43,029 nt of DNA from a bacterium (GTDB lineage: Bacteria > Oederibacteriota > CAKKQC01), in contig CAKKQC010000014.1 of the NCBI GenBank assembly GCA_919901855.1, positions 1 through 43,029 of the forward strand, written 5' to 3'. Below are positions 1,970-16,973 of the stretch, piece after piece. Each line of letters begins with the position of its first letter. Position 1 is the stretch's first letter. Under the pieces are notes generated by a model, which saw only the letters and a list, made by a program, of their open reading frames with translations, searched no databases and was not told the origin of the DNA. Position numbers and translations under genes: made by a program.

Positions 1970-3794
1970 ATGGCGAGAAGAGCCCGAACACGCGCTCGAG
2001 ATTCGGCTCGCAGGAAAGCAGCCAAACTTAATGATGGTCGCGGTCCAGGCGAATTGGGGGCGCCGAGAACTGCCGCAGCAGCTCGCTTCGCTCCGATCTT
2101 TGACGACCTCCATACACCCTTCTTCGTCGCGGACTCCTCCGGCAAGGTCGTCTACTGCAACGCCTGCCTGCGGACCCTCCTCGACCTGCCCGCCTCGCGA
2201 ATCGTGGGGAGGAAATGCCTGCGGCTCTTCTTCGGCGATCAGCCTCCTCCCATCCCTGGCCCGCCGTCTGCCTCCGGACAAGGCGCCACCGCGTCCGTCG
2301 TGGTTCGTTCAGTCGAGAACATGACCTGCCTCATCGCCACCTACCCGATGAGCCAGCCGGACGGAACGCCTGCTGGAGCGCTGTTCTTTCTGCATCGCCT
2401 GACCGACACGGCCAGATCCAGCCTGGGAGGCGATGACTCCCCGTCGAGTCTCCGAGGACTCATCCAGAATCCCCCCGTCGTCGTCGTCAACCTGGATCAC
2501 GCAGGCCGCGTGGCAACTTGGAACTGGAGCGCTGAGCGGATGTTCGAGATGAACACCACGGAGGCCTTGGGCACGTTCTGCCCCGTTCTGGCAGACGACA
2601 ACCTTGAGTTGAACTACCTGCACAGGCAGCGGTTCCTCAACGGCGAGGATCTCACAGGAGTCGAAGTCCGGAGGGCCCGCCGGAACGGCAGCGTGATGGA
2701 GATCAACTACTCCATCTCCCCAACGACCGATGCCGAGGCAAAGATTCTCGGGTTCACGCTGATCGCCGTGGATGTCACCGAACTGAAGCGGGTAGAGGAG
2801 ATCGGACAGCGCCGACAGGAGGAAATTCGTGAACTGCAGAAGGTCGAGGCGATCGGGCGGCTCGCGGGAGGCATCGCCCATGACTTCAACAACATCATGA
2901 CTGCCGTGGTCGGGTACAGCGAGCTTCTGTTGAATGACCTTCCTCAGGAGGGCCGTGTGCGGAGGATCGTCGGTGAGATCCACAAGGCTGGCCAGCGGGC
3001 AACCGAGCTCACTCAGCAGCTCCTCGCCTTCAGCCGACGCCAAATGCTCCAGCCGAAGGTGCTCGACATCAATCAGGTCTTCCAAGAAGTGGAGAAGCTC
3101 CTACAACGTCTTCTCGGGGAGGACATCGAAATTGTCACGAAGTTGGACAAGCGACTCTGGTCGGCGTACGCGGATCGTGACAGGATCATGCAGGTTATCC
3201 TCAACCTCGCCGTGAACGCGCGGGATGCCATGCCGAATGGAGGGAAACTGATCATCGAGTCCAGAAACTCCGTCTTGGATACAGCGTACGCTCAACTCCA
3301 CCCCGGGATCTCGGCCGGAGAGTACGTCGCGCTCGTGATCAGTGATACGGGACACGGCATGGATGATCAGGTGAAGGCCCATCTCTTCGAGCCTTTCTTC
3401 ACCACCAAGGAAGTCGGCAAGGGAACGGGGCTGGGCTTGGCGACTGTATACGGCATTATCCGGCAGGCTGGCGGCCACATCAGTGTCTATAGCGAGGTGT
3501 CTCATGGGACCACTTTTCGAATCTACCTCCCACGCTCAACCGAGCAGCAGGAACCGCAGCCTACTCCACCGAAGATTCCCGAAGTCGCACGGGGCGGCAA
3601 CGAGACAGTCCTCCTAGCCGAAGATGAGGCAAGCGTCCGCGAGCTCGCTACCGAGGTTCTCAAGAACCTGGGATACACGGTTCTGCCCGCCCGCAACGGC
3701 CTAGAAGCACTAAGCATAGCCAGGAAGTGGCAGGGCCCAATTCACCTGCTCCTCACCGATATCGTGATGCCTAGGATGGGTGGCATCGAACTGG

Positions 3795-3798
3795 CTAG
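3795..3798. repeat. Left target-site duplication, CTAG
   Basis: CTAG immediately left of the IS. Keeping exactly one CTAG on removal of the IS restores the kinase reading frame; keeping none does not. Confidence 0.9.
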
Positions 3799-3812
3799 CA
3801 GGTTGCTGAAAA
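3799..3812 (+). repeat. Left terminal inverted repeat of the IS
   Basis: CAGGTTGCTGAAAA, perfectly matched by the reverse complement at 5144-5157. The repeat is where the transposase would bind and cut. Confidence 0.9.
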
Positions 3813-3879
3813 AGGGGAACTTCTCCGTCCGCTCGTCAATTGTGATGAACAGCAGAACGCTGATGGCGGGAGGCTGAGA

Positions 3880-4989
3880 ATGCGCGGACGGGAAGAACGG
3901 CAGAGCAGCATGCTGGTGGTCTACAACATCGAGGAGCGGATTCCGGCGGACCATCCGCTCCGGCGGATCCGGGCGCTGGTGGATGAGCGGTTGCTGGCGC
4001 TGTCGGCGCGGTTTTCAGCCGCGTATCCTGAGCTCGGACGCCCCTCCATTCCCCCCGAAGCGTTGCTGAAAGCCCTCCTGCTGCGGGCGTTGTATTCGAT
4101 CCGCAGCGAGCGGCAGCTGGTGGACCAGCTGAACTGGAATCTCTTGTACCGGTGGTTCGTGGGTTTGGCCCCGGACGCCGACGTGTGGGACGCCACCACG
4201 TTTACGAAGAACCGGGAGCGGTTCGAAGCGCACGGGCTGGTGCAGGCGTTCTTCGACGGGGTGGTGAAGGAGGCGGTGGCGCGGGGCCTGGCGTCGACGG
4301 ACCATTTCAGCGTGGACGGGACGTTGATCCAGGCGTATGCGTCGCTCAAGAGCTTCAAGCCGAAGGACGGGACGGGGCGACCGCCGACGGATGACGATCC
4401 GAAGAACCCGACGGTGAACTTCCGGGGCGAGCGGCGGAGCAACGCGACGCATGCGTCGACGACGGATCCGGAGGCGCGACTGGCGCGGAAAGGGGACGGG
4501 AAGGAAGCGAAGCTGTACCACGGGGCGTCGATCCTGATGGAGAACCGGACGGGGTTGTGCGTGGCGGTGGCGGTGCATGAGCCGGCGGGCGAGGCGCGGG
4601 CGGCAGGGCCGCTGGTGAGCCAGGCGCGGCGGCGGATGGGGTTTACGGGGACGGTGACGGTGGGAGCAGACAAGGGGTACATCGGCGGTCCGGCGTTGCA
4701 GGCAATGGAGCGGGCGAAGGTGGTGCCGCACGTACCGATGGACGATCCCCCGATGGATCTGTCGCGGCCCGGCGCGCGGGCGAGACAGCGGGCGTACCGC
4801 CGGCAGGGCACGAAGGGGCATGCGATCAGCCAGTGGATACGGAAGCAAGTGGAGGAAGCGTTCGGGTGGGGCAAGACGATCGGGGGCATGGAGCGAACAC
4901 GATTCCGAGGGCGGTGGCGTGTGGGGCTGCAGGTACTTCTGACGATGGCCGCCTACGACTTGGTGCGGATGGCGAAATGCACGGCGTGA
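3880..4989 (+). CDS. IS5-family DDE transposase
   Basis: A 369-residue transposase with an N-terminal DUF772-type helical DNA-binding region (about 10-110) and a DDE catalytic domain. The acidic triad is visible as D in HFSVDGTLIQAY (about 146), D in TVGADKGY (about 265) and E in KQVEEAFGWGKT (about 326). A GGAGG site a few bases before the ATG supports the start at 3880. The length is normal for the family and the frame is intact, so the element may still be active. Its codon use is heavily GC-rich, unlike the surrounding kinase gene, as expected for a recently arrived element. Confidence 0.95.
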   Translation: MRGREERQSSMLVVYNIEERIPADHPLRRIRALVDERLLALSARFSAAYPELGRPSIPPEALLKALLLRALYSIRSERQLVDQLNWNLLYRWFVGLAPDADVWDATTFTKNRERFEAHGLVQAFFDGVVKEAVARGLASTDHFSVDGTLIQAYASLKSFKPKDGTGRPPTDDDPKNPTVNFRGERRSNATHASTTDPEARLARKGDGKEAKLYHGASILMENRTGLCVAVAVHEPAGEARAAGPLVSQARRRMGFTGTVTVGADKGYIGGPALQAMERAKVVPHVPMDDPPMDLSRPGARARQRAYRRQGTKGHAISQWIRKQVEEAFGWGKTIGGMERTRFRGRWRVGLQVLLTMAAYDLVRMAKCTA

Positions 4990-5143
4990 GGTCGCGACGA
5001 GGACGAAGACCGGGACGAGACGAGGCTCACGGAGGCGAACGGAGGGCGGGAACGGCGAGCGGGACGGTCGCAAAGCCGACCGGCTCGCCCCTTCAGCCGC
5101 TCAGAACCGGGTCACGATCAGTTCTCTCGTCCTCATGACCGTA

Positions 5144-5157
5144 TTTTCAGCAACCTG
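5144..5157 (-). repeat. Right terminal inverted repeat of the IS
   Basis: TTTTCAGCAACCTG, the reverse complement of the left end. Confidence 0.9.
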
Positions 5158-5161
5158 CTAG
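5158..5161. repeat. Right target-site duplication, CTAG
   Basis: Second copy of CTAG, immediately right of the IS; see the left copy at 3795-3798. Confidence 0.9.
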
Positions 5162-5336
5162 GCAGTTCACCACCATGCGCCCCATGAGCAGAGTGCTTCT
5201 GATGTCCGGATACACGGGCGAAGTCCTTACTCGCAGGGGGCTTCTGGGGTCAGAAGTGCCGTTCCTTGAGAAGCCGTTCTCGACGGCGCGGCTTTCGGGC
5301 AAGATCAGGGAGATCCTAGACTCCTCCCGCAGATAG
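5162..5336 (+). pseudogene. 3' part of the interrupted histidine kinase (rest of the receiver domain)
   Basis: When 3799-5157 and one CTAG are removed, the frame runs on from IELA into RQFTTMRPMSRVLLMSGYTG and ends at the TAG at 5334-5336. This supplies the missing receiver features: the LLMSGYTG strand with its conserved serine and the EKPF motif with the conserved lysine, followed by the last helix. The rebuilt protein has 667 residues (2,004 bases including stop, divisible by three). By itself this segment has no start codon that would make a useful product. Confidence 0.92.
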
Positions 5337-5676
5337 CTCCTGCGCTGCCCACACGAGGAGCTCGCCGGGAATCCACTCTTGCCCTCGAATTCCCTCCGAA
5401 ATGCTGGTCGTGGTCTACAGACTGCATTGGAGTTGACCAGGAATTGCCGATCATTGGCGACTCGAGATTCCACGAACACCGACACGGCAGAATGCCCCCC
5501 CCTTTCGGGAGGCCAGAAAGGCTGGATCATTGCCTGCTTCTTACCTTTCGACCCCCAACGGGCGCCCAACAGCGCCGGTATCGTCGACCGACTGTCAGCC
5601 ACTCGGATGGTATTAACGCCTGTGGGTGGCCCTCCTTGCTCAATTGAGTTGTCAGTCGGCTCCCATGATGAGTGTT

Positions 5677-5724
5677 ATGCTCTCCAGGCCATGTGACATC
5701 AGGGTCATGTGTCACCGCTTGTGA
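5677..5724 (+). other. 15-codon open frame inside repeat copy 1
   Basis: Reads MLSRPCDIRVMCHRL and stops just before the first GTCAG box. Copy 2 has a frame of the same length at 9994-10041. In copy 1 the equivalent of the -10 box is CATGAT rather than TATAAT. Length and position are shared, but the changes between the copies include many that alter residues, so coding is doubtful. Confidence 0.15.
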
Positions 5725-5725
5725 G

Positions 5726-5750
5726 CTGACGATTACTGACGGATGCTGAC
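5726..5750 (-). promoter_or_regulatory. Array 1 of three GTCAG boxes, 10-bp phase
   Basis: On the plus strand CTGAC occurs at 5726-5730, 5736-5740 and 5746-5750, i.e. GTCAG three times at exact 10-bp steps on the minus strand, one helical turn apart. The middle spacer TAATC/CTGACGATTA is also kept. This matches arrays at 7618-7642 and 10043-10067. It looks like an operator for a protein binding one face of the DNA; the binder is unknown. Confidence 0.65.
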
Positions 5751-5832
5751 ATCCCTTCACGCGCAGGCGGAATATCCTCCTCGCCAGGAACCGCACACAG
5801 GACGCGCTCTTCGAAGCAGCGCTCTTGTTGGC

Positions 5833-7473
5833 CTACTGAGCCTTCACGGACGATGCACAGCGGAACCCGATACTGACGCCCCTGGCTGACGGATCGTGGT
5901 AGCCTCGGCTCGCGGACCGGCACATCACACCTGCATCGACCCATGATCCACCACGAAGCACGCGGTATCTACTGAAATCTTGACCAGGAGGGTCCTGAAC
6001 AGGGCTCGAGGAATAGTAGGCCGCGTCATACCAATCCGCGCACCATTCCCACACGTTCCCGTACATGTCATATAGACCAAATGCGTTCGCCACCTTCTGA
6101 CCCACTGCGTGTGTTTGCCCCTCTGCGTTGCCGATATGCCATGCGTAGTCGCCAAGCCGCTCCACATCATCACCGAAGCACCACTTCCCCATGCTTTCTG
6201 CCCGGCACGCGTACTCCCACTCCGCCTCGGTCGGCAACCGCTTCCCGTAGTACGTTGCATACGCCATCGCGTTGTCCCAGCTCACTCCGATGACGGGCCT
6301 ACTCCCTCGACCCCAGTGTCCGTCCCCGGGTACACCCCTCCTTGTCGCCTTGCAGAAGCGGTCGTATAGGTCAAACGTCACCTCGTACTTATCGAGATAG
6401 AACGAGCTGACCCTTACCGCGTGCGGAGGCTTCTCGTCCGGGCCTCCGTCGTTACTTCCCATCGTGAACTCCCCTGCGGGTATCAGGATCATCTCCGCGC
6501 CATCTTGGCCCGCGGTCTCCTTCGCCAGTGACGATGCCGCGGAGATGGGTCCGGGAAGTGCCGGAGCCGGCACTTCCGGTACGACCCATAGATCCTTCCA
6601 GGGCGCTACTGGTTCCGTGGACACCGTCGCAGGCACAGAGGACACGAATGGAGCATGGGGCGGTGCCGCCTCTGTCGCTTCCGTCACGAACACGAACTCT
6701 CCCTCTCCGCTACGGCCCACTTGCGGATTCTGCTCGCGCCGGAACCGCGTCATTGCTGTCTGCGCCACCTTCGGCTTGACGTAAGCGGCGATATCGTCGC
6801 TCGTCACGATTCCGTCGTGATCCGCGTCTGCAGCGCCGGATATGGCCTCAAGGAAGTACCTCGTGAACAGGCCCTGCCCCTGCCACTCGTGGGCCTCCTG
6901 TCCCGCCCTCCCCGCAGTCATCACCATCCGCACCCGCTTGCTCGTTACCTGCATGAGGTAGTCGCGGAGATTCGGCGACAGACCAAGGCCGCGAGTCCAG
7001 AGCGCGAGCCCCGAGTAGCAGGAGTCTGCCACGAACATGACATGCTTACAGGGGTACTCCTCGAACCACTCCGTCAGCTCTCCCATAGAAATCCCCGTGG
7101 CCCGGAGCAGGTCCCGATCCCCGTCGACAGGCATCAGGTAGCCCATCGCCCTCTTTCCCGCCCCTGTCGATACGCCGTGGCCAGCGAAGTAGACGAGCAC
7201 ACGGTCCTCGCGGCCGACGTTGTTCCGAAGTTCATCGCCGAGTCGCGTCCGGATACTCCGCAGGCTGGCTTCCTCGTTGCACAGGAGGCTCACCGTGAAC
7301 CCATGCTGCTTGAGCGCCTCGGATACCGCAACGGCATCCCGCACCGCGCCCGTAAGCGGGGACATATTCCAATTCTGGTAGGCGTCGATCCCGATTGCGA
7401 TGGCGATTGAGTTGTCGTAGATCTTGACGGTACCCGTAAGCCCGCCCCGGCCGCCCGGAGGGGGTGTATACAT
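5833..7473 (-). CDS. Caspase-like peptidase fused to an FGE-sulfatase-fold domain
   Basis: A 546-residue protein. Residues 18-250 form a peptidase C14 (caspase/metacaspase) domain with the catalytic pair H99 in YFAGHG and C152 in ADSCYSG; an EF-hand-like loop DADHDGIVTSDD lies near 215. After a proline-rich linker (about 265-320), residues 325-546 form an FGE-sulfatase/C-type-lectin-like domain (IPAGEFTMGS, LPTEAEWEYA, GNVWEWCADWYD, RVLRGGSW, GFRCA). Catalytic FGEs have two cysteines after GGS; here the first is replaced by aspartate (VDAGVMC), so this domain is more likely a sensor or binding module. Caspases with sensor domains act in bacterial abortive defence (established). The start at 7473 is chosen over 7509 because AGGCAGGGG precedes it and because an 18-codon leader ends just upstream. 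Confidence 0.88.
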   Translation of the reverse strand: MYTPPPGGRGGLTGTVKIYDNSIAIAIGIDAYQNWNMSPLTGAVRDAVAVSEALKQHGFTVSLLCNEEASLRSIRTRLGDELRNNVGREDRVLVYFAGHGVSTGAGKRAMGYLMPVDGDRDLLRATGISMGELTEWFEEYPCKHVMFVADSCYSGLALWTRGLGLSPNLRDYLMQVTSKRVRMVMTAGRAGQEAHEWQGQGLFTRYFLEAISGAADADHDGIVTSDDIAAYVKPKVAQTAMTRFRREQNPQVGRSGEGEFVFVTEATEAAPPHAPFVSSVPATVSTEPVAPWKDLWVVPEVPAPALPGPISAASSLAKETAGQDGAEMILIPAGEFTMGSNDGGPDEKPPHAVRVSSFYLDKYEVTFDLYDRFCKATRRGVPGDGHWGRGSRPVIGVSWDNAMAYATYYGKRLPTEAEWEYACRAESMGKWCFGDDVERLGDYAWHIGNAEGQTHAVGQKVANAFGLYDMYGNVWEWCADWYDAAYYSSSPVQDPPGQDFSRYRVLRGGSWVDAGVMCRSASRGYHDPSARGVSIGFRCASSVKAQ

Positions 7474-7489
7474 TACACCCCTGCCTCGC

Positions 7490-7546
7490 CTAGAAGTCAC
7501 GGGACCCATTCAGCGCGACTGCCACAACGGGGCTTGCGATCGCCAT
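7490..7546 (-). CDS. Possible 18-residue leader peptide of the caspase gene
   Basis: An ATG at 7546 lies 6 bp after a TACAAT box and opens a frame reading MAIASPVVAVALNGSRDF, which stops 16 bp before the caspase start. The same promoter and ATG, inside a 23-bp identical stretch, open a full-length protein at 16269. This suggests that translation does begin here, with the caspase then started by re-initiation. Coding is inferred from position only. Confidence 0.35.
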   Translation of the reverse strand: MAIASPVVAVALNGSRDF

Positions 7547-7565
7547 GCCGCCATTGTAGTACGGC
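7543..7565 (-). repeat. 23-bp promoter/start repeat, copy 1
   Basis: Identical over 23 bp to 16266-16288. On the minus strand the core is TACAATGGCGGCATGG, i.e. a -10 box, six bases and an ATG. The flanks differ. It may mark shared control or a recombination joint. Confidence 0.8.
7553..7558 (-). promoter_or_regulatory. -10 box of the caspase transcription unit
   Basis: TACAAT on the minus strand, 6 bp before the leader ATG at 7546 and about 60 bp downstream of the GTCAG array at 7618-7642. No good -35 box is seen, as would be expected of a promoter that needs an activator; that is inference. Confidence 0.5.
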
Positions 7566-7617
7566 ACCATTCCGACGAGGCCTATTTGAATGAGGGCCAC
7601 GGGTCGCGCGTTGTTAG

Positions 7618-7642
7618 CTGACGATTTCTGACGGCTACTGAC
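7618..7642 (-). promoter_or_regulatory. Array 2 of three GTCAG boxes, 10-bp phase
   Basis: CTGAC occurs at 7618-7622, 7628-7632 and 7638-7642. It lies between the 3' end of the PIN-like gene and the caspase promoter. Only the array and about 15 bp beside it resemble the repeat unit; the rest of the unit is absent here. That the array is kept while its surroundings are not argues that it is the functional part. Confidence 0.65.
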
Positions 7643-7698
7643 ACGCTAAATGCCGCCTGACCGCAATCCTCCGCGCAAGTCCGGTACGCGCTCTCGTG

Positions 7699-9669
7699 TC
7701 ACGAGAGGCTCTCAATCTCGTCCTCCTCCATCAACCACTTTCTCAGCCGTGCGAAGATGGCCTTTCTCAACCCCAAACGGACCTTGCCCCTGATATCCGC
7801 CAGGGAGATGCCGAACACTAGGTGCACAGAAGACATGATGACAACGACGGTCAGGACCAGACTCATGAACGAGGACATGACGCGAAAGAGGGGGGAGCTG
7901 GACGCACCTAATAGCAGATGCTCCAAGAGCCTACCACTGGGCACGCTGGACGAAAGGACGAGAAGCACTCCTCCCCAGAACACAACGGCGCCCGTTGCAG
8001 TCGAGATCCTCTCCGCGAGGAAGTAGACCTTTCCCATTTGCCGCCTCGCTCTATCGCGGGCTGAACTCTCTCGTCCTTCGGCCTCAACACGCTTGGTCCG
8101 CTCATCCGCGACCAGTTTGTCACTCCGCTCCTCAATCTCTCGTGTAATATCGCGTTTGGCGCTCTCAAGAACTTGTTCAATCGTCTTCTGGCTGAAAGCC
8201 TCCTCAGAGCCTAACGTCAGGTTCATAAGCTCTTCGCGCGCCTTCAGTGAGAACCGAAGTATTTCATGATCGCGAGCCGAAATGCTCTTCAACGTCTGGA
8301 GTTTGTCAATCTCCTCGATGTATCTCTTCCAGAGATCCTCCCTTGGCTCCATTGCCGCCTGGCACAAGGCCATGAGCTCCAGCCGCGGCAGGTCAGGTGC
8401 GGCCATAGGTGCTTTGAGCCACGCAATATTGGCCAGGCTGAAATCCGTGATTACGCTGCACACTTCCTGTGTGGATTCGTGACGCCGACCAAACTCAAAG
8501 GCCACCCTCGCCAGGGCCGAATTCGATGTAACCAGTACCGCATTGCAGTGTTCAATCGTTCTCGGATTCGATCCGCGTCGCAGAGCATAGACGCTACGGA
8601 TGGAGTTGACGTCGAACTCGACCGCTCGTGGATTCCCGTAGGAAACCTCCTCGGACAGAGCTTCATGCAATAGCCGTTCATCAATCTCGAAAGCCTCCTC
8701 GTAGCGAGGGGTCGGCCTTGTCCGAAGACCCATCTCCTCGAGTTCATCGTCGAGCTTGCCGAGGAGCAACGCAAGATCGGACCTTGTCCTGCCCGCTCGC
8801 CTCATCTCAAGAATGATCCGGGACCGTGCCAGCGGACTATCGAAATGCGCCTCATGCCACCCCAAGACATTCCGTACTTCCTCTAACGTATGCTGGAAGA
8901 GCTCTACAGCCCCTTTCAGGTTCCTGACAAGGCTGACCATTTCACCGACTGACGCGCGCCTTATCTCTCCTTCTAATCCCAACAGGCGAATTACAAGTGG
9001 CGTGTCGAGCAGAAAGTGCGCTGACGAGAATTTCGCCGGCAAGGATCCGAGATCAGAGCAGGTCAAAGCATTAGACAGCATGTGGCCTTTCACAAGAGAC
9101 GTGAGGGCATCAAAGGTCCGCTTGGAGTGTTCTGCAACGTGTGCGACAAAGGAACTGAGGAGATAGAGATCTCTTGCGCCCTGCTTCCGTGAACATGGAA
9201 TGACACTTCCGGTTGAATACGCCCGCAGGCACTCAATCGAGAAACGCCCCATATACTCGAGCATCGCGTTAGTAGCCTCGATTTCCGTCCAATCTATCCC
9301 ATGCTTGGTCCGAACAAAGGCTATCAGCTCCGCGACAATGGAGAGGTATGAGGTCTTAAGCTCCTCCCTCCTCTCGTGGATCGCAGGAGTGGGAATCTGT
9401 GAGACCCTGACGTAGGTGTTGAACTCACGCCGAAGATAGCGCCCTCTCGCCAGCCTCCGCAGGACCATCTCGGTACCACTTAGGGGAATGAGCAAACCAA
9501 ACTCATCTCTCAGTTGGTCTCGGATCGAATCACAGGAAACGAGCATTCCTTTCTGATCGTTCAAGATATGGCCGACAAACGGAACCAGGTAGTCGATGTA
9601 GTCTCGATTCTCGACATCCAAGTTCACCTTGAGCATCGCGAGACTGGCCAGCGTATCGATACTGCTCAT
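7699..9669 (-). CDS. Large PIN-like protein with coiled coil and two C-terminal membrane helices
   Basis: About 656 residues. I do not recognise the N-terminal 220 residues. A PIN-like nuclease core is suggested in the middle: FLLDTPLVIRLLG (D about 222), EEV (about 265), EFDVNSI (D about 353) and VLVTSNSALAR (about 379-389), the usual order of acidic residues in that fold, though the last acidic position is an asparagine. A long charged coiled coil follows (about 495-550), then two hydrophobic helices (about 555-580 and 590-620) and a basic tail. This suggests a membrane-anchored RNase-type effector. The start is either ATG 9669 or TTG 9696, the latter behind GAGGCAA. Its base composition is visibly lower in GC than the right half of the window. 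The repeat unit copy 2 lies directly upstream. Confidence 0.6.
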   Translation of the reverse strand: MSSIDTLASLAMLKVNLDVENRDYIDYLVPFVGHILNDQKGMLVSCDSIRDQLRDEFGLLIPLSGTEMVLRRLARGRYLRREFNTYVRVSQIPTPAIHERREELKTSYLSIVAELIAFVRTKHGIDWTEIEATNAMLEYMGRFSIECLRAYSTGSVIPCSRKQGARDLYLLSSFVAHVAEHSKRTFDALTSLVKGHMLSNALTCSDLGSLPAKFSSAHFLLDTPLVIRLLGLEGEIRRASVGEMVSLVRNLKGAVELFQHTLEEVRNVLGWHEAHFDSPLARSRIILEMRRAGRTRSDLALLLGKLDDELEEMGLRTRPTPRYEEAFEIDERLLHEALSEEVSYGNPRAVEFDVNSIRSVYALRRGSNPRTIEHCNAVLVTSNSALARVAFEFGRRHESTQEVCSVITDFSLANIAWLKAPMAAPDLPRLELMALCQAAMEPREDLWKRYIEEIDKLQTLKSISARDHEILRFSLKAREELMNLTLGSEEAFSQKTIEQVLESAKRDITREIEERSDKLVADERTKRVEAEGRESSARDRARRQMGKVYFLAERISTATGAVVFWGGVLLVLSSSVPSGRLLEHLLLGASSSPLFRVMSSFMSLVLTVVVIMSSVHLVFGISLADIRGKVRLGLRKAIFARLRKWLMEEDEIESLS

Positions 9670-9980
9670 GTCGTCAGGATACACCGTTGCCTTCAAATTG
9701 CCTCGTTCTTGCCGATCGTTGTCTTGAAATGGGCTTGGAATTGACCATAGGTTGCCGATCGTTGACTATTCGAAATTCCAGGAACGTTGACTGGGTCGAA
9801 TTCCAACCCTTTCGGCAGGCCAGAAAGCCCGTATCATCAACCACTAATTGCCTACTTCTTGCCTTCCGGGCCCCTGAAGGGGTCGCACCTGCCCGTTCCG
9901 TCGGTCAGGTGTCAGCCATTCGGCGGGTCTTGACGCCTGTGCGTTGCCCTCCGTGCTCTATGGAGGTGTCAGTCGGCTCC

Positions 9981-9986
9981 TATAAT
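9981..9986 (+). promoter_or_regulatory. -10 box within repeat copy 2
   Basis: TATAAT, 7 bp before an ATG at 9994. It could drive a short RNA through the GTCAG array or the TIR-methyltransferase gene. No clear -35 box. Confidence 0.35.
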
Positions 9987-9993
9987 GAGTGTT

Positions 9994-10041
9994 ATGCTCT
10001 GTAGGCCATGTGACATAAGGGCCATTTGTCGCGCTTTGTGA
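9994..10041 (+). other. 15-codon open frame inside repeat copy 2
   Basis: Reads MLCRPCDIRAICRAL and stops at the first GTCAG box. It has a perfect TATAAT 7 bp upstream and a counterpart in copy 1. It may be a leader peptide or chance. Confidence 0.2.
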
Positions 10042-10042
10042 G

Positions 10043-10067
10043 CTGACGATTACTGACGCTTGCTGAC
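10043..10067 (-). promoter_or_regulatory. Array 3 of three GTCAG boxes, 10-bp phase
   Basis: CTGAC occurs at 10043-10047, 10053-10057 and 10063-10067. It lies about 90 bp before the TAGGAT box of the TIR-methyltransferase gene and about 375 bp upstream of the PIN-like gene, so it could serve either. Confidence 0.65.
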
Positions 10068-10171
10068 GCGCCGAGGGACGGTTCATCGGGCTTGAGTTTC
10101 GATTGGAGTACCCGCCACCCGTTGTACGTCGAACTGCCGGACATGCACCGTGTGGTAGGATGAGGTCAATC

Positions 10172-11386
10172 ATGAATGCTGTTAAGTATGATGTGTTCCT
10201 TTCGTACAACTCCAAGAATCTCGCGGAAGCCCGCGCGTTGCGAGACACGTTGAAGAACTCTGGCTTTCGTGTGTTCTTTGATGAGGATTCGCAGCGTTCG
10301 GGCATCGTGAGGAAGTTGATCGAGGACGCGATTCGCAACAGCCTGAGCTTCGTCTTCCTAGTGGGGCAGAGCGGCGTTGGCAAGTGGCAGCATTTCGAGT
10401 TGAACCTCTTCACTTCGTTTCACGTGCGTCATCGAGAGAAGAGGCCCATAATCCCCGTTCTCATAGAGGGACTCGATGTGCATTCGCGAAGGCTTCCAGA
10501 CAGCCTTCGAATCCACAGAGCAGTAATGCTACCGAGCATCTCAAAAGCCTCTGCGCCTCAGCTCGTGAGGCTCTGCGAGCTCATACCCTATGAACAGGCA
10601 GGCGGACTGGCCACTCAAGATTCCGTTGAGCTTGAGCGGCCGTTCCTGACGAAAGCGCAGAAGTTGCTTCTCAATTCCACGGTCGCTTTCTATGATGAGA
10701 ACGCTGACAGGTACTACTCCGAATGGAGAGATCATGTTCCGGAAGGTCCTATGAACACTTTCATGGAAAACGTGCGGACCTACAACAGAAAAGTGTTGAA
10801 CCCGAGGATTATGGATGCTGGCTGTGGCCCAGGCCATCACTCTCTATTTTTCGCTAAGAAGGGCTTCCTAGTCGAGGGTATCGACCTCTCAACGGGATTC
10901 CTTAAGATCGCAAATGGACATAACCACCCGAGGTGCAGGTTCGCGCAGCAGGATATGCGTTTTCTTGATAACAAGTCCGAGAAGCGCGGCCAGTTCGATG
11001 GCGTATGGGCATGCGCTTCAGTGCTTCACCTTCCACGCGAGGCTCTCCAGCCTCAGCTATACCAGTTCCTGGCTGCATTGAAGCCTGAAGGTGTTCTTCA
11101 TCTCGCTCTTCAAGTCAACTTTCCCTCTGCACTCCAGATCGAGGGCCGTTTCTTCGAGAGATACGCGCAACGTGATGTTCCGAATGAGCTCCAGCGGCTG
11201 GGTTTCGAAATCGTTTCAGAGACAACGAATATCACTGAGCGTAGTACGACCCAAGAGAGGAAGGTGAAGAAGTGGCTTCATGTCACCGCGATCGCACCCC
11301 GAATTCGCGATAGGCTAAGGTTGGTCAACAGGAAAGTGCGAGGGCGGGAACAAGATCACGCCAAACCCATTCGCCCTCGTAACTGA
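10172..11386 (+). CDS. TIR domain fused to a SAM-dependent methyltransferase
   Basis: A 404-residue protein. Residues 4-130 are a TIR domain: YDVFLSYNSKN at 6-16, FRVFFDED, FVFLVGQSG and the candidate catalytic glutamate E76 in KWQHFELNLF. Residues 170-370 are a class I methyltransferase with motif I MDAGCGPGH (214-222), an acidic residue ending the second strand (GIDLS), RFAQQDMR and an FDGVWACASVLHL motif IV. TIR domains of this kind often hydrolyse or cyclise NAD+ in antiphage systems (established); the methyltransferase might act as sensor or modify the product or a small molecule (inference). The start at 10172 has TGAGG 6 bp upstream. Its 3' end overlaps the converging TIR-TPR gene by 31 bp. 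GC content is visibly low. Confidence 0.85.
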   Translation: MNAVKYDVFLSYNSKNLAEARALRDTLKNSGFRVFFDEDSQRSGIVRKLIEDAIRNSLSFVFLVGQSGVGKWQHFELNLFTSFHVRHREKRPIIPVLIEGLDVHSRRLPDSLRIHRAVMLPSISKASAPQLVRLCELIPYEQAGGLATQDSVELERPFLTKAQKLLLNSTVAFYDENADRYYSEWRDHVPEGPMNTFMENVRTYNRKVLNPRIMDAGCGPGHHSLFFAKKGFLVEGIDLSTGFLKIANGHNHPRCRFAQQDMRFLDNKSEKRGQFDGVWACASVLHLPREALQPQLYQFLAALKPEGVLHLALQVNFPSALQIEGRFFERYAQRDVPNELQRLGFEIVSETTNITERSTTQERKVKKWLHVTAIAPRIRDRLRLVNRKVRGREQDHAKPIRPRN

Positions 11387-14073
11387 GCGAGAAGGATCTG
11401 GGCCGACTCATTCTCCGGCTCGTCACGAAGCAATCGGTTGAGGAGTTCCAAAGCTTCCGCGAATCTACCTGATCGCGCAACCGCAACACAGAGATTCGCG
11501 CGCATCGCCGAGTGATTCGGCTCCAAGGTCAATCCACGGCGGAATGCGGCTTCCGCTTCTGGCCACCGCCCAAGAGCGGCAAGTGATGCACCCCAAAGCT
11601 CGAAGCGATCTGAGGTATCTCCGAGTTCAGTGGCCCTCTGAAGGTTCGTGATTGCCTTCTCGTGCTGACCCATCCTTGCCAATTGCGTCCCGAGATGTTC
11701 ATGGGCTTCGCCAGACTCTGGGGCTATCTGGACGGCCTTCTCCAAGTAGTGCACGGCTCTTTCATGCAGACCTTCTTGGTCGAGCAAGATGCCGAGCAGT
11801 ATCGCGCTTGGCGCATGATCTGGAGCCAAGTCGACGGCAAGCTGCGCAGGAACAAGTGCTTCAGAATACCGTTTCAGACTTACGAGCGCCAAGCTGAGAT
11901 TGGATTGATATCCGGGCTTTGACGGTTCCCTGCGCGCGGCGGCCTCGAAGTGAACCAGCGCAGCTTCGTGGTTGCCCAATTCACCCAGGCAGATGCCGAG
12001 TTCAGATTGGATGCGAGCATCATCAGGCGCTAATATCGCTGCTTTCTGACAGTGAGGGAGCGCTTCGGAGTATCGGCCCAGTTTGCGCAGAGTCTGTCCC
12101 ATCAATCCGCAGACGTTGGCATGCGGCGGGGCTTCTTTGATGGCGGTTCCCAGGCATTTGATGACGTCCTGTAAGCGCCCCTCATACAAATAGCCCGTGG
12201 CCAGTTCAAAATACACATCGGCGTCAGCGGGGGTCGCAATAATCTTCTCCTCCAACTCTCTGATCCGCGATGCGGAATCGAACTTGGCTGGCATCGTAAT
12301 CGTAAAGCCGTATTCATGTGACTCCGGCGTCTTCGAGAATCCAATCGGCATCGTCGGATAGAACCAGATGGCCTTGCCAGCGGGTCCGGTGAGACCTATC
12401 CTCCCGACGCCGGATGTGGATCGCTCGGTCTTGGAGCGCGGCAGTGACTGGAGGAAGAATGTTTCGAGGAGCTCTGCTCCGCTGGAGCTGGTCCCCACAG
12501 GCATCGGCTCGTCGTTGTTAGCGATCGGGTGTTGCATGCGTGCGAATTCGTGGAGCGCCTCCGAAACCTGTTCGATCAAATGTACGGAATAGGAATATGT
12601 GTCTCCTATGAACCTCAGGGTAAAGTCCTCGACACCGACCTGATATGCGCGAGCTGGGATGGAAACTCCGATTGCCGTCAGCAGAGCGAGGTCCTCCAGC
12701 TTCTCCACGCGCTTAACGCCTAGCATCGACCACGGAACAAACGCCTCGAAGCCCGCGACCACGGACCAGTGTCGTTTGCCTGGCGCGATTCTCTTGAACC
12801 AGAATCCGGGCTCGCGGTCGTAGGTTTCCCAATACGAACACACCGGGCCGTTAGAAGACTCTGAATGCTCCTGGGTGTTGGGCGTGGGAGCGTCGGCGAG
12901 GACTTGGCTCAGTTTGAGGGACTTCTCGTCCCGCGACAGAGTAATGCGAGTGTCGTCCAGAAGAGCGCGAAACCAATCGAAGCCAACATTCCCCTTGAGT
13001 ATGAAGAGAACTTCGATACCGCGAATCGGATGACTCTGAATGTAATGCCATCGCCGTTCAGCGGCATGCCTCTTGTCATCATCAGCATCTGCTTTTCGTG
13101 CGCCTTCCGTCACCTTACTGAGGCTATGGGCTGGTCCCTGCAGTACATCTAATCCAGCAGGCCCCTTCGAACTCAAGACGCAGGCTTGGAAATGCCCGGC
13201 TCTCTCCCAAGCCCCCCCAGCCTCATCCGCCACGGCACAGCCAGATGTTCGGAGGCGGCTCAGCAATGCTTTCCGCTTGTCCACCGAGTCATCGAGGGGG
13301 ACGAAATGCCGGCCGACTATGTCGCTGAATGGTCGGACATCGCCCAACTGGACGAGGATCGTCCTTTCCTCGCTACGGCCGAGGGCCATGCCAGCTTCAA
13401 ACAGCACGTTCGGCCTCGGCTGGAGCTTGAAATCGGCTTCACCCTTCCCCTCCTCTTGCAACGCTTCATCCAGCATGACCCACTCATCACCAGTGAAGAG
13501 GACGATGACTGCCTGAGCCACGCTGAAGGCAGCGGTCAGGATTTCCCACACATGAGGTGAGCCCTTCTTGGTGAGGGCTACTGCATCCTCCCATTCGAGA
13601 GGTTCCAAGCCTGCCGTCCGCAGGAATGCAAACAGCTCATCTCGTGCCTTCAGGTTGCGGCCATGTACAACGAATACCTTCTTGGGATCACCTATCTCCT
13701 GATGAATCGTGACCTCGAAGTTCTCCATCATGATCACGAGGTACGGATCTGCATGAACGCGCTTCTGCGGATCATCCATGCTCAAGATCACCTCTCCTTC
13801 CGCTTCGAGGTGTCCTGCCTCGAGATCCCTGCGCGCCTCCCAGTACATTGCTCGCTCCATTTCATCAGGCTTGAGCGGCTCCCAGTAGGTGTGCGGAACC
13901 TGCACGAAACGCACGATGCGCTCGAGAAATGCCCTCTCATCAGGCCGCCCACACTTGGCCTTCGGAATCCTGTCAAATATAAAACACCACCGAGTCCATA
14001 ACCCGTCAGGAGGGACCTCGTAGAACTTGTTCGGCCAAGGGACTAGGACAAAGACCTCTCCCGTCTCCGCCAT
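11356..14073 (-). CDS. TIR-like (PF10137-type) protein with a C-terminal TPR array
   Basis: A 905-residue protein. After about 128 unknown residues comes a TIR-like nucleotide-binding domain of the kind seen in CBASS and Pycsar effectors: KKVFVVHGRN (131-140), ELFAFLRTAGLEPLEW, AVIVLFTGDEW and NVLFEAGMALG with the conserved glutamate E226. Residues about 320-580 form a second unrecognised domain. From about 590 to the end there are eight or so tetratricopeptide repeats (YFELATGYLYEGRLQDVIKC and similar), suited to protein-protein sensing. It lies 10 bp behind an XRE regulator in the same direction and is probably co-transcribed. Likely an NAD+-degrading effector whose TPRs sense a trigger; no cyclase gene accompanies it, so cyclic nucleotide control is not supported. 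Confidence 0.82.
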   Translation of the reverse strand: MAETGEVFVLVPWPNKFYEVPPDGLWTRWCFIFDRIPKAKCGRPDERAFLERIVRFVQVPHTYWEPLKPDEMERAMYWEARRDLEAGHLEAEGEVILSMDDPQKRVHADPYLVIMMENFEVTIHQEIGDPKKVFVVHGRNLKARDELFAFLRTAGLEPLEWEDAVALTKKGSPHVWEILTAAFSVAQAVIVLFTGDEWVMLDEALQEEGKGEADFKLQPRPNVLFEAGMALGRSEERTILVQLGDVRPFSDIVGRHFVPLDDSVDKRKALLSRLRTSGCAVADEAGGAWERAGHFQACVLSSKGPAGLDVLQGPAHSLSKVTEGARKADADDDKRHAAERRWHYIQSHPIRGIEVLFILKGNVGFDWFRALLDDTRITLSRDEKSLKLSQVLADAPTPNTQEHSESSNGPVCSYWETYDREPGFWFKRIAPGKRHWSVVAGFEAFVPWSMLGVKRVEKLEDLALLTAIGVSIPARAYQVGVEDFTLRFIGDTYSYSVHLIEQVSEALHEFARMQHPIANNDEPMPVGTSSSGAELLETFFLQSLPRSKTERSTSGVGRIGLTGPAGKAIWFYPTMPIGFSKTPESHEYGFTITMPAKFDSASRIRELEEKIIATPADADVYFELATGYLYEGRLQDVIKCLGTAIKEAPPHANVCGLMGQTLRKLGRYSEALPHCQKAAILAPDDARIQSELGICLGELGNHEAALVHFEAAARREPSKPGYQSNLSLALVSLKRYSEALVPAQLAVDLAPDHAPSAILLGILLDQEGLHERAVHYLEKAVQIAPESGEAHEHLGTQLARMGQHEKAITNLQRATELGDTSDRFELWGASLAALGRWPEAEAAFRRGLTLEPNHSAMRANLCVAVARSGRFAEALELLNRLLRDEPENESAQILLAQLRGRMGLA

Positions 14074-14083
14074 TTCGACCGCC

Positions 14084-14329
14084 CTATGACCTGAACAGCT
14101 CGCGGACCGGAACCCGGAGCCCCGAGGCCATCATGACGATGGTCTCCAGCGACGGCCTTCGCGACCCCCGATCCAGATGCGCGATGAAGTTCGCGCTCAG
14201 CCCAAGCCGCTCGGCGAGCTCCGCCTGCATGAACCCGTGGCGGTGTCGTTCAGCGCGCACACGCTCACCCAGCAGGCGCGTAACCTGCTCGACCGTCAAG
14301 ACCCTCGAGGATTTGACCCGTCGTGCCAT
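14084..14329 (-). CDS. XRE-family (Cro/CI-like) transcriptional regulator
   Basis: An 81-residue single-domain helix-turn-helix protein. LLGERVRAERHRHGFMQAEL is followed by AERLGLSANFIAHLDRG and PSLETIVMMASGLRVPVREL, the standard five-helix XRE pattern. It precedes the TIR-TPR gene by 10 bp and probably controls that unit, as such regulators often do for defence genes. The start ATG 14329 is chosen over GTG 14332; a TAGCAT box sits 7 bp upstream, so it is probably translated from a leaderless message. Confidence 0.9.
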   Translation of the reverse strand: MARRVKSSRVLTVEQVTRLLGERVRAERHRHGFMQAELAERLGLSANFIAHLDRGSRRPSLETIVMMASGLRVPVRELFRS

Positions 14330-14336
14330 CACCGAG

Positions 14337-14342
14337 ATGCTA
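14337..14342 (-). promoter_or_regulatory. -10 box of the XRE/TIR-TPR unit
   Basis: TAGCAT on the minus strand, 7 bp before the ATG at 14329; leaderless layout. Confidence 0.4.
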
Positions 14343-14458
14343 GCACAGCGCCAGACATGGACGATGCTCGACTCCGACCCGCATTCCCCCCCTCAAGCTC
14401 CCGAGGGCGCGTCCTGGAGCGCGACGACGAAGATCGACGGGGCGTCCCGAGCGATCAG

Positions 14459-15379
14459 CTAACGACCCCCGGATCGCTTCCTTGAACTCGATGCATGCCC
14501 CGCCAGACCATCGAGAATCGTGACTCCGCCAACAACGGCCGTGATCCCGAGCGCCAAGTTCTTGAGGTCCTTCCAGGCTTGGTCTGTGCGTCTCTTCCCG
14601 AGGCAATCCCGAAAGGCAGGGAGGATTCCCGCTATGGGTCGCCTCACGGTCTTAATGTCACGCCTGTCGAACGTGATGGCTGGGAACTCGCCATGATCCG
14701 CAAGCGCTCCCGGCAATGCACCCACATCCACTCCCTCTTCCCTGGCTATCAGTATCGGCTTCCCTTTGCCGAACGCGATTCCGACTTCTCCGTGCAGCCA
14801 CTCAAGGGTCTTCCATAGGCCCGACACGGAGTCCCGATGACGAGGCGTGGCGATGACGAACACCCCATCCGCCTTCCGAATCTCGTCTTCGACAGCATGG
14901 TGCACCATGTGGGAGGGGACAACAACTTCAATCCCTACGGTACGGGTCTGCAAGCCCCACAAGTGGAGGAGATCAACAATGGGATCGCCGACGATGCGAT
15001 CTTCAGGGTGAAGGCCACGGGAGACGAAGATCCGGTAGACCGTACGCGGAGGCACTGAGAGGGTATGGCCGGATTCGCGGTGCGCGGGCAGCGGAAGCCA
15101 TTCAAAGCCAGTCCATTGCTTGACATGGGTCGTCACCGAGAAGGGTACGGTTCCACTCACTCCCGCAGGAAGCCTGATCGCTTGTAGAGGAAGGGAGTCT
15201 GAAGTACCAGGCGGAAAGACACGCCTCACCGCGAACTCTCGAGCCCCGAATGAGAAGGCGAAGTTGATGGACTCGAGTGCCAGTTGGAGTCGACTCGGGT
15301 TCGTGAACTTGAATTGCACCTGAATCGGCCTCTCCCCTGGCGGGAACGGGAAAAGGAACGACCACTGCACGTTCCACAT
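14459..15379 (-). CDS. TIR-like domain protein with N-terminal beta-rich domain and C-terminal membrane helix
   Basis: A 306-residue protein. Residues 1-110 look beta-rich (VQFKFTNPSRLQLALESINFAF and similar) and are not recognised. Residues 115-250 resemble a TIR/SLOG-type fold: YRIFVSRG, then ADGVFVIATPRHRDS and WLHGEVGIAFGKGKPILIA, with E198 where TIR domains carry their catalytic glutamate. Residues 274-294 are hydrophobic and may anchor it. A strong AGGAGGTGA site fixes the start. It follows the gene ending at 15418 by 38 bp in the same direction and is likely co-transcribed. This is the third TIR-like protein within 5 kb. The fold call rests on a few motifs and is less sure than for the other two. 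Confidence 0.6.
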   Translation of the reverse strand: MWNVQWSFLFPFPPGERPIQVQFKFTNPSRLQLALESINFAFSFGAREFAVRRVFPPGTSDSLPLQAIRLPAGVSGTVPFSVTTHVKQWTGFEWLPLPAHRESGHTLSVPPRTVYRIFVSRGLHPEDRIVGDPIVDLLHLWGLQTRTVGIEVVVPSHMVHHAVEDEIRKADGVFVIATPRHRDSVSGLWKTLEWLHGEVGIAFGKGKPILIAREEGVDVGALPGALADHGEFPAITFDRRDIKTVRRPIAGILPAFRDCLGKRRTDQAWKDLKNLALGITAVVGGVTILDGLAGHASSSRKRSGGR

Positions 15380-15417
15380 GCTTTCACCTCCTGACTTGTT
15401 TGGTCAGCTCCTTCACC

Positions 15418-16269
15418 TCAGCATCCCCCCGCCAGCACGACCTGCATTCGCTCGAGTAGCTTGTGGCGTGGATCGGATGGACCCACGATCGAGACGATGA
15501 TCATCTCGTGGGCGGTCGTGACAACCAAATCAACGATCACCGGCCTGATGAGTGTGAGGATGACGCCGAGCACTTTCGGGGAGGACACCTGCCTGTTGAT
15601 TCTCGCAGCATTCCTCTCCCAGAACGCATGGATCGCGGCCCGAAGAGTCGCCCGCACCTGCGTCTCGCTGCCGCCAACCGTCTGCCCCGTTGGCCAGACC
15701 TCGTTCAACTCGTCAAGCGCCAATGCCACAAGGCCTCCTTGAGTCCACTTCGCTATCTGCTTCCTCCCCTTCCCTAGCCTCTTCCCAAGAGCGCCGAGCC
15801 CGTAGACGTGCTTGCATGCCAGACCGAGTTTGGTCGAGCCGACCCTAAACGATAGGTCCGGCTCCTCAAGAGCAGGGCACAGGCCGCCGCGCTCAAGCCA
15901 GAACGCCATGAGGAGCTCGTACTCGAAGTCCTTGGCATGGCTCTCGTCAGGGACGAAAGTCTCAAGCGGACCTTGTTGAAGCTTGGCCAAGTACTCCTGA
16001 TCCCGTGGCTTGCCGTCTAGCCATTCCACCGCGTCCAGGATGCGATTGCAGTCAGCCGCACGCCAAACCAGCGCGCTGTGTTCTGGCTTCAACTGCCCCG
16101 TCCGCGTCAGGAGTTCATTGCGCAGGCGATCCAACTCACTTGGAGCCGCCAAGATCGTGTCCAAGCTTGACCCCGCAGCGACGGGTATGCCGTATCGCGC
16201 GAATCTCGCCCGTGCATCCGTAGCACGGCGTGCAACATCTGCGTAGGTGCTTCTCACGAAGCTATCCAT
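15418..16269 (-). CDS. Unknown protein, possibly PD-(D/E)XK-nuclease-like
   Basis: A 283-residue protein. A helical N-terminal half is followed by FEYELLMAFWLERGG, EEPDLSFRVGSTKLGLACKHV and KQIAKWTQGG, the order expected for a PD-(D/E)XK core (helix with E, strand with D, strand with xxK, helix with Q). The second acidic residue is alanine (ACK), so catalysis would need a migrated residue or may be lost. The C-terminal part (SSPKVLGVILTLIRPVIVDL) is a beta-strand-rich segment. The start at 16269 is supported by a TACAAT box 6 bp upstream; an ATG at 16296 lies before that box. It heads a two-gene unit with the TIR-like gene at 14459-15379. Confidence 0.5.
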   Translation of the reverse strand: MDSFVRSTYADVARRATDARARFARYGIPVAAGSSLDTILAAPSELDRLRNELLTRTGQLKPEHSALVWRAADCNRILDAVEWLDGKPRDQEYLAKLQQGPLETFVPDESHAKDFEYELLMAFWLERGGLCPALEEPDLSFRVGSTKLGLACKHVYGLGALGKRLGKGRKQIAKWTQGGLVALALDELNEVWPTGQTVGGSETQVRATLRAAIHAFWERNAARINRQVSSPKVLGVILTLIRPVIVDLVVTTAHEMIIVSIVGPSDPRHKLLERMQVVLAGGC

Positions 16270-16288
16270 GCCGCCATTGTAGTACGGC
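16266..16288 (-). repeat. 23-bp promoter/start repeat, copy 2
   Basis: Perfect copy of 7543-7565 with the core TACAATGGCGGCATGG on the minus strand. A weak relative of the GTCAG array (GTCGG-AAATC-GACGG) follows at about 16311-16330. Confidence 0.8.
16276..16281 (-). promoter_or_regulatory. -10 box of the 16269-14459 unit
   Basis: TACAAT on the minus strand, 6 bp before the ATG at 16269; leaderless layout. Confidence 0.5.
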
Positions 16289-16499
16289 GTGAGCACCCGA
16301 GACGCTCATCTCCGTCGATTTCCGACGCCAGCCCGCGCCCAACCCCGTCCGCGCTCGGCCGGGTTACCGCCCTAGAGTCCGAAGCGACGAAGCCACGGCG
16401 GGAGGGACGGTGTCACTGGTAGACGAGAGGTGGAGGAGAGTACGGTCGAGCGGGACGAGTTCGTCCTTACCGATCTTCTACACCCGTAGTTGACTCGCC

Positions 16500-16973
16500 C
16501 TATGAAGTGCGATCGGTGAGCATCGCGATCCCAAGGATGCGATGCGCGCGCTCATAACGGTCGTGAATGCATTGGTAGTCCTTCGTGCTCTGGCGCATCG
16601 CGGCTGACAAGTAGTTCAAGCAACGATAGGCCTCGAGTGCGTTCATTCTGGAGGGAACGCGTCGAAACATCCTGAATATCCAGTAACACGGAAGCTGGAC
16701 AGTCTTTGAGTAATACGCTGCCGCAACATTGCGCAACCTGGCAACCGCTTCCTTCTCGTCAGCGTCTGTTCCGGCCGACTGCGGGTTGCAGATCTCCGGA
16801 GCCCAATAGTGAAGCACGTAACAGATATCGGCGACGGCTTTCCGGACCTCCAGGTATGGCTTGATCAAGAACTCCACGACGACCTGGCCCATGATGAAGA
16901 CGATTGTTCCCGAGAGGACGGTCAATAACGCGGTCAGCATGGGAGGAGAGGTTAGGACTGTTGGCCCGTTCAT
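16500..16973 (-). CDS. Small membrane protein of unknown function
   Basis: A 157-residue protein with one clear N-terminal membrane helix (about 12-34, LTALLTVLSGTIVFIMGQVVVEF) and a helical cytoplasmic part containing several aromatic and cysteine residues (ADICYVLHYWAPEICNPQ, YYSKTVQLPCYWIFRMFRR). Similar short single-helix proteins occur widely as hypotheticals; no function is assigned. The start at 16973 is supported by a TAGAAT box 8 bp upstream on the minus strand. It stands alone at the edge of the defence-like cluster. Confidence 0.6.
   Translation of the reverse strand: MNGPTVLTSPPMLTALLTVLSGTIVFIMGQVVVEFLIKPYLEVRKAVADICYVLHYWAPEICNPQSAGTDADEKEAVARLRNVAAAYYSKTVQLPCYWIFRMFRRVPSRMNALEAYRCLNYLSAAMRQSTKDYQCIHDRYERAHRILGIAMLTDRTS

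Follow-up and report, generated by a model that had tools for sequence, protein, structure and literature searches.

TIR domains of the kind described here destroy or remodel NAD+ in phage defence, and the sensor or receptor attached to a TIR is what its classification goes by, with TIR-STING, TIR-SAVED and TIR-TPR as examples of sensor-partnered forms. A gene at positions 10172 to 11386 (plus strand) of the window, by which we mean the whole 43,029-nucleotide stretch of bacterial DNA analyzed here, raises the question of what a TIR domain does when it shares its chain with a methyltransferase. The first-pass annotation had described the product as a TIR domain with a glutamate at residue 76, joined to a class I methyltransferase with a full motif I, and had known of no antiphage system with this pair; it had suggested that the methyltransferase could detect a phage SAM hydrolase or a shortage of SAM, or could alter what the TIR produces.

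The gene encodes 404 amino acids plus a stop codon in one continuous frame, and its product, P0001, gave two Pfam matches above the curated cutoffs, TIR_2 (PF13676) at residues 8-102 (E 2.8e-15; score 57.3 bits, cutoff 28) and Methyltransf_25 (PF13649) at residues 213-307 (E 4.6e-14; score 53.3 bits, cutoff 27). Thus, the joining of the two domains in a single open reading frame was borne out. The start was read from the sequence as the ATG at 10172, with a GAGG upstream and a likely ribosome-binding region at 10156 to 10165 (plus strand); a TTG at 10103 would lengthen the frame to 427 amino acids, and the ATG was preferred because it agrees better with where the TIR begins and with the ribosome-binding site. 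A promoter search for this gene gave nothing above chance. Three stretches of the plus strand could be delimited: the TIR domain at 10193 to 10477 (residues 8-102; from Pfam, the AbTIR alignment, and an AlphaFold model with Foldseek); the remaining TIR fold to about residue 141 together with a linker of about residues 142-167 at 10478 to 10672 (from Pfam and the models, with low model confidence at residues 137-155); and the class I SAM-dependent methyltransferase domain at 10673 to 11290 (residues 168-373; from Pfam PF13649, a family profile, and a structure match). No solved structure covering the whole fusion was found.

The TIR half carries most of the residues expected of an NAD+-consuming enzyme. 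The predicted glutamate is present in a WxxxE motif, WQHFE at residues 72-76, whose W72 and E76 align with W204 and E208 of AbTIR, while S11, R21, and D37 align with AbTIR S140, R151, and D167. The positions of AbTIR V193 and R215 are occupied by F62 and F83. Mutation at these seven AbTir positions inhibits the NADase (PMC11374754), and five of the seven residues are kept in P0001 in the AbTIR alignment. An AlphaFold model of the TIR half alone had a mean pLDDT of 75, and its best Foldseek matches were the TIR domains of SARM1, SPARTA, AbTir, and TIR-STING (E 2.8e-06; TMq 0.73). These sequence and model data indicated that the P0001 TIR is likely an NADase. The fold, the WxxxE tryptophan and glutamate, and the S140/R151/D167 equivalents are common to P0001 and the bacterial TIR NADases AbTir and BtTir (8g83/7uwg and 7uxr), from which P0001 differs in its C-terminal methyltransferase and in the two phenylalanines, F62 and F83.

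In the C-terminal half, motif I was intact as anticipated (DAGCGPG, residues 215-221) and was followed by the acidic residue D238; further motifs were QFDGVWACASVLH at residues 274-286, GRFF at 325-328, and W369. A profile built from nine relatives with P0001 left out scored P0001 at E 1.5e-35 in a single-sequence search. The full-length model, for which the alignment consisted of methyltransferases only, reached a pLDDT mostly above 85 in this half and modelled the TIR half poorly, giving no basis for the packing of one half on the other. The best structural match of the methyltransferase was RPA2492 (3e23; Z 25.8, 1.8 Å over 192 residues), which also matches the family profile (E 1.8e-39), and further matches included TehB, METTL6, and phosphoethanolamine, toxoflavin/heterocyclic-toxin, and other small-molecule methyltransferases. 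RPA2492, TehB, and METTL6 share with P0001 the methyltransferase fold and the SAM motif, but they are standalone enzymes, RPA2492 a functionally unassigned one, and P0001 is without the family GRD and SFK residues: GCGSGRD and SFKYG of the closest collected relatives read GCGPGHH and ALQVN. Since RPA2492 itself also lacks RD (GCGAGYQ), GRD marks a subgroup and not the fold; given the altered GRD and SFK residues, the P0001 methyltransferase may have changed its substrate or weakened. Outside the SAM loop, the motifs QFDGVWACAS, GRFF, and KWL persist, though QFDGVWAC is invariant across the first relative set partly by construction, as this peptide was one of the patterns searched with. A role in DNA restriction-modification was rejected for this half: Pfam listed no DNA-methyltransferase family in P0001, and the position of an [NDS]PP[YF] motif reads ACAS. 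Sequence and model together make an RPA2492/TehB-like, small-molecule-type class I methyltransferase the most likely assignment.

A chance reading frame or a frameshift chimera was also considered and rejected. The two halves are alike in composition (GC 0.53 versus 0.52; GC3 0.66 versus 0.59), the frame is unbroken, and a second protein has the same domain order, all of which make such an origin unlikely. That protein was reached through L075_1, a methyltransferase relative that led to a contig (L081) of another phylum. The contig carries a tight five-gene operon on one strand (3309-10129) encoding, in order, an SspA/DndA-like protein, which is a cysteine-desulfurase-like enzyme, a HIT-like-methyltransferase, the second TIR-methyltransferase (P0002), a PfkB kinase, and a standalone methyltransferase. 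P0002 is 888 amino acids long, with TIR_2 at residues 36-159 (E 1.3e-22) and Methyltransf_25 at 709-815 in Pfam, and with about 500 residues of helix-rich-looking sequence between them; in BLASTP it matched P0001 at 1e-15 over the methyltransferase and at 3e-7 over the TIR. Both proteins thus have an N-terminal TIR and a C-terminal methyltransferase of the same family, and they differ in that P0002 has a long inter-domain region and a five-gene operon, whereas the P0001 gene is alone on its strand. The HIT-like N-terminal region in the operon was read from the sequence, Pfam having listed no HIT family there. The standalone methyltransferase is closest to that of P0001 in the tree, with weak support. 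PADLOC did not match the five genes as a system.

The architecture is therefore not unique to this genome, being present in two distant ones, and from the sequences the pairing of TIR and methyltransferase looks real. No further frame with both domains was found among the collected loci, and when genomes were searched with P0001 at E cutoffs of 1e-12 to 1e-13, the window gene was the sole TIR-methyltransferase recovered; two is a minimum, since a protein that has diverged as far as P0002 would probably escape these cutoffs. Scans of viral contigs with P0001 and P0002 revealed no relative, and tblastn against plasmids and phages gave methyltransferase-only or TIR-only matches and no fusion. In its own genome (93% complete) the P0001 gene is single-copy, and the remaining matches are unrelated methyltransferases.

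Within the libraries consulted, the pair also corresponds to no described antiphage system, in agreement with the first-pass annotation: PADLOC gave no full-length match to P0001, and the open literature searched describes no TIR-methyltransferase fusion. Thoeris, CBASS TIR effectors, SPARTA, and retron-TIR systems each use a TIR NADase in an antiphage context, as proposed for P0001, and the partners that define them were sought. The eight proteins scanned (5833-16973) contained no SIR2-SLOG or macro ThsA, which places the gene outside Thoeris, and ThsB profiles matched the P0001 TIR weakly (E 0.0015). SAVED, STING, and CD-NTase were absent from P0001 and the neighbours scanned, so that it does not qualify as a CBASS TIR effector; a SAVED_TIR profile matched over the TIR part only (8.4e-05; profile positions 15-72). 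APAZ and short Argonaute were likewise absent from these proteins, placing P0001 outside SPARTA, as was a reverse transcriptase partner of the retron-TIR type. A mad2 match to P0001 covered only positions 293-401 of the 492 in that profile, and among the other proteins scanned a mad1 match fell weakly on an HTH gene (E 0.029), with no other MADS gene; thus, membership in MADS was not supported.

The surroundings of the gene support a defence setting. An HsdR-like fragment lies at the window start, followed by a transposase (3880-4989) and, on the minus strand, by a protein in which Pfam shows a caspase-like peptidase together with an FGE-sulfatase/FGS domain (5833-7509) and which gave a sub-cutoff match to an EACC1-associated caspase model. 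A 665-aa protein encoded divergently from the fusion gene (7699-9696, minus strand) had no match in Pfam, PADLOC, or NCBIfam; its plasmid-borne relatives in Enterococcus, Arthrobacter, and Sporosarcina, at 24-29% identity over about 80%, are annotated as hypothetical. Downstream, a 905-aa protein (11356-14073, minus strand) combines a CAP12/Pycsar-type TIR (residues 132-261) with a C-terminal TPR array matching TPR-S, and its gene is convergent with the fusion gene, overlapping the 3′ end of the latter by 31 bp. An Xre-type HTH (14084-14332) and two minus-strand genes (14459-16296), for a 306-aa protein with a weak FMN_red/deoxyribosyltransferase-like match and a 292-aa protein with a weak DrmC match, follow. 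GC content is 0.54-0.64 over the first 18 kb of the window, 0.53 in the fusion gene, and about 0.69 in the remainder. The TIR-TPR and caspase-FGS proteins, the HsdR-like fragment, and the lower GC are what support the defence setting. No operon partner was seen on the strand of the fusion gene, which therefore appears to be a one-gene unit.

Three copies of a repeat lie in this region on the same strand (5480-5750, 7578-7643, and 9807-10067). The repeat ends with AGCTGACGATTnCTGACGnnTnCTGAC (CTGAC at ten-base spacing) and is absent from the genome outside these copies, which part the caspase-FGS, 665-aa, and fusion genes as if modules had been inserted separately. The copy at 9807 to 10067 (plus strand), ending with AGCTGACGATTACTGACGCTTGCTGAC, stands 5′ of the fusion gene, between it and the divergent 665-aa gene; it is a possible module boundary, with a putative link to the fusion gene. 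An integron attC identity for the repeats, judged by eye, was unsupported and was dropped. The repeat-bounded modules and the lower GC suggest that the region was assembled from acquired pieces.

Relatives of the methyltransferase are themselves frequently partnered with other enzymes. A NUDIX domain precedes it in two loci (L003, from a domain search, and L006, from the sequence), where the fusion adjoins a DUF3427 restriction helicase called mREase_IV by PADLOC; NUDIX follows it in five others (L063, L066, L067, L070, and L071), as read from the sequence, and in a haloarchaeon a NUDIX gene overlaps the methyltransferase gene. GNAT fusions were read from the sequence of L057 and others. An HNH endonuclease is fused to the methyltransferase in L076, and an HNH gene adjoins the methyltransferase gene in L007 and on seven plasmids (L042, L043, L045, L050-L052, and L054), beside BREX-type genes on two of the seven. 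In this recurrent pair, the HNH endonuclease is about 340-380 aa long; together with its RPA2492-like methyltransferase, it may constitute an unnamed defence pair. Near Dnd/Dpt-type genes, partly read from the sequence, family members occur in four loci (L002, L009, L047, and L055), in all of which the methyltransferase gene also adjoins one for a protein starting like a secreted or membrane protein. The NUDIX-MTase, MTase-NUDIX, and HNH-MTase proteins thus draw on the same methyltransferase family as P0001 and, like it, join or adjoin another enzyme; their partner is a hydrolase or nuclease, as opposed to the TIR of P0001, and several have mREase_IV, BREX, or Dnd genes as neighbours.

A tree of 64 methyltransferases placed the HNH, Dnd, and NUDIX-mREase_IV members in one group and the P0001 methyltransferase outside it, where it has a long branch and joins L075_1 with weak support (85/75); its membership in the HNH-/Dnd-linked group was accordingly dropped. 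The family is therefore defence-associated in part, with the P0001 branch outside that part. Since P0001 lies outside the defence-neighboured group, its own link to defence rests on the island and on the L081 contig.

Our leading proposal, which we hold tentatively and at somewhat less than even confidence, is that P0001 acts in immunity as a one-gene system, with a TIR NADase and an active small-molecule methyltransferase working in a coupled way. The N-terminal TIR would be an AbTir/BtTir-type WxxxE NAD+ consumer, held quiet until infection. The methyltransferase would have as its substrate a small molecule connected with the TIR reaction or with what triggers it, the candidates being a nucleotide-like product and a metabolite that infection alters. 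The substrate or SAM state of the methyltransferase would gate the TIR, whose release would lead to NAD+ loss or to a modified ADP-ribose signal and hence to abortive infection.

A first alternative, unlikely in our estimate, makes the methyltransferase a receptor: its SAM-bound form would hold the TIR off until phage SAM degradation or a competing ligand frees it to consume NAD+. This would suit a fused TIR, which normally has a sensor partner, and a gene that stands alone, its strand carrying no sensor gene besides; it also agrees with motif I and D238 being kept while the family GRD and SFK motifs are altered. However, the persistence of QFDGVWACAS, GRFF, and KWL outside the SAM loop is expected of a substrate site, and the L081 fusion sits among three methyltransferases with HIT-like and PfkB proteins in a pathway-like setting. 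With NUDIX, HIT-like, and PfkB proteins as fusion partners or neighbours of the methyltransferase relatives, a small-molecule enzyme fits the genomic context better than a pure SAM sensor, without deciding between them.

Rather unlikely as well is a division of labour in which the TIR produces a nucleotide of the ADP-ribose or cyclic ADP-ribose type, which the methyltransferase then methylates into a distinct signal that another island protein, such as the TIR-TPR or the caspase, would receive. Two enzymes on one chain would suit channelling, fusion to or overlap with NUDIX recurs among the methyltransferase relatives, which also occur with HIT-like and PfkB proteins, and effectors with other readouts lie next door; yet these neighbours are encoded on the other strand and, with repeats between them, may have been inserted separately, and the neighbours scanned gave no recognisable SLOG, macro, or SAVED receptor. 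To our knowledge, there is also no precedent for a methylated ADP-ribose signal.

Guarding or toxin neutralisation is improbable. Here the methyltransferase would detoxify a compound or mark a host component, as may hold in the HNH-methyltransferase pairs, and the TIR would kill on its failure. TehB and heterocyclic-toxin methyltransferases among the structural neighbours agree with this, as do the HNH genes that directly adjoin family members in L007 and on seven plasmids and the HNH fusion in L076, but the P0001 methyltransferase falls outside the HNH-linked tree group, and a toxin and antidote on one chain would require proteolysis or a conformational switch, neither of which is indicated. 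Equally improbable is that two independent mobile modules were joined by chance in a gene-shuffling defence island with no special combined function, as the repeat-bounded, lower-GC pieces, the promiscuous fusions of the methyltransferase family, and the count of two TIR-methyltransferases known here could suggest, for the second protein has the same order in a distant genome and the catalytic motifs are intact in both halves.

A methyltransferase partner for TIR in two distant genomes would add a SAM or methylated-small-molecule input or output to NAD+-based immunity, and the L081 operon may carry out similar chemistry with several genes. More speculatively, and unlikely on present evidence, the TIR-methyltransferases would form a new class of NAD+-linked immune enzyme that couples methylation to TIR catalysis on a single chain, for example through a methylated ADP-ribose-type signal or a SAM readout, with multi-gene versions adding HIT-like, PfkB, and cysteine-desulfurase-like enzymes.
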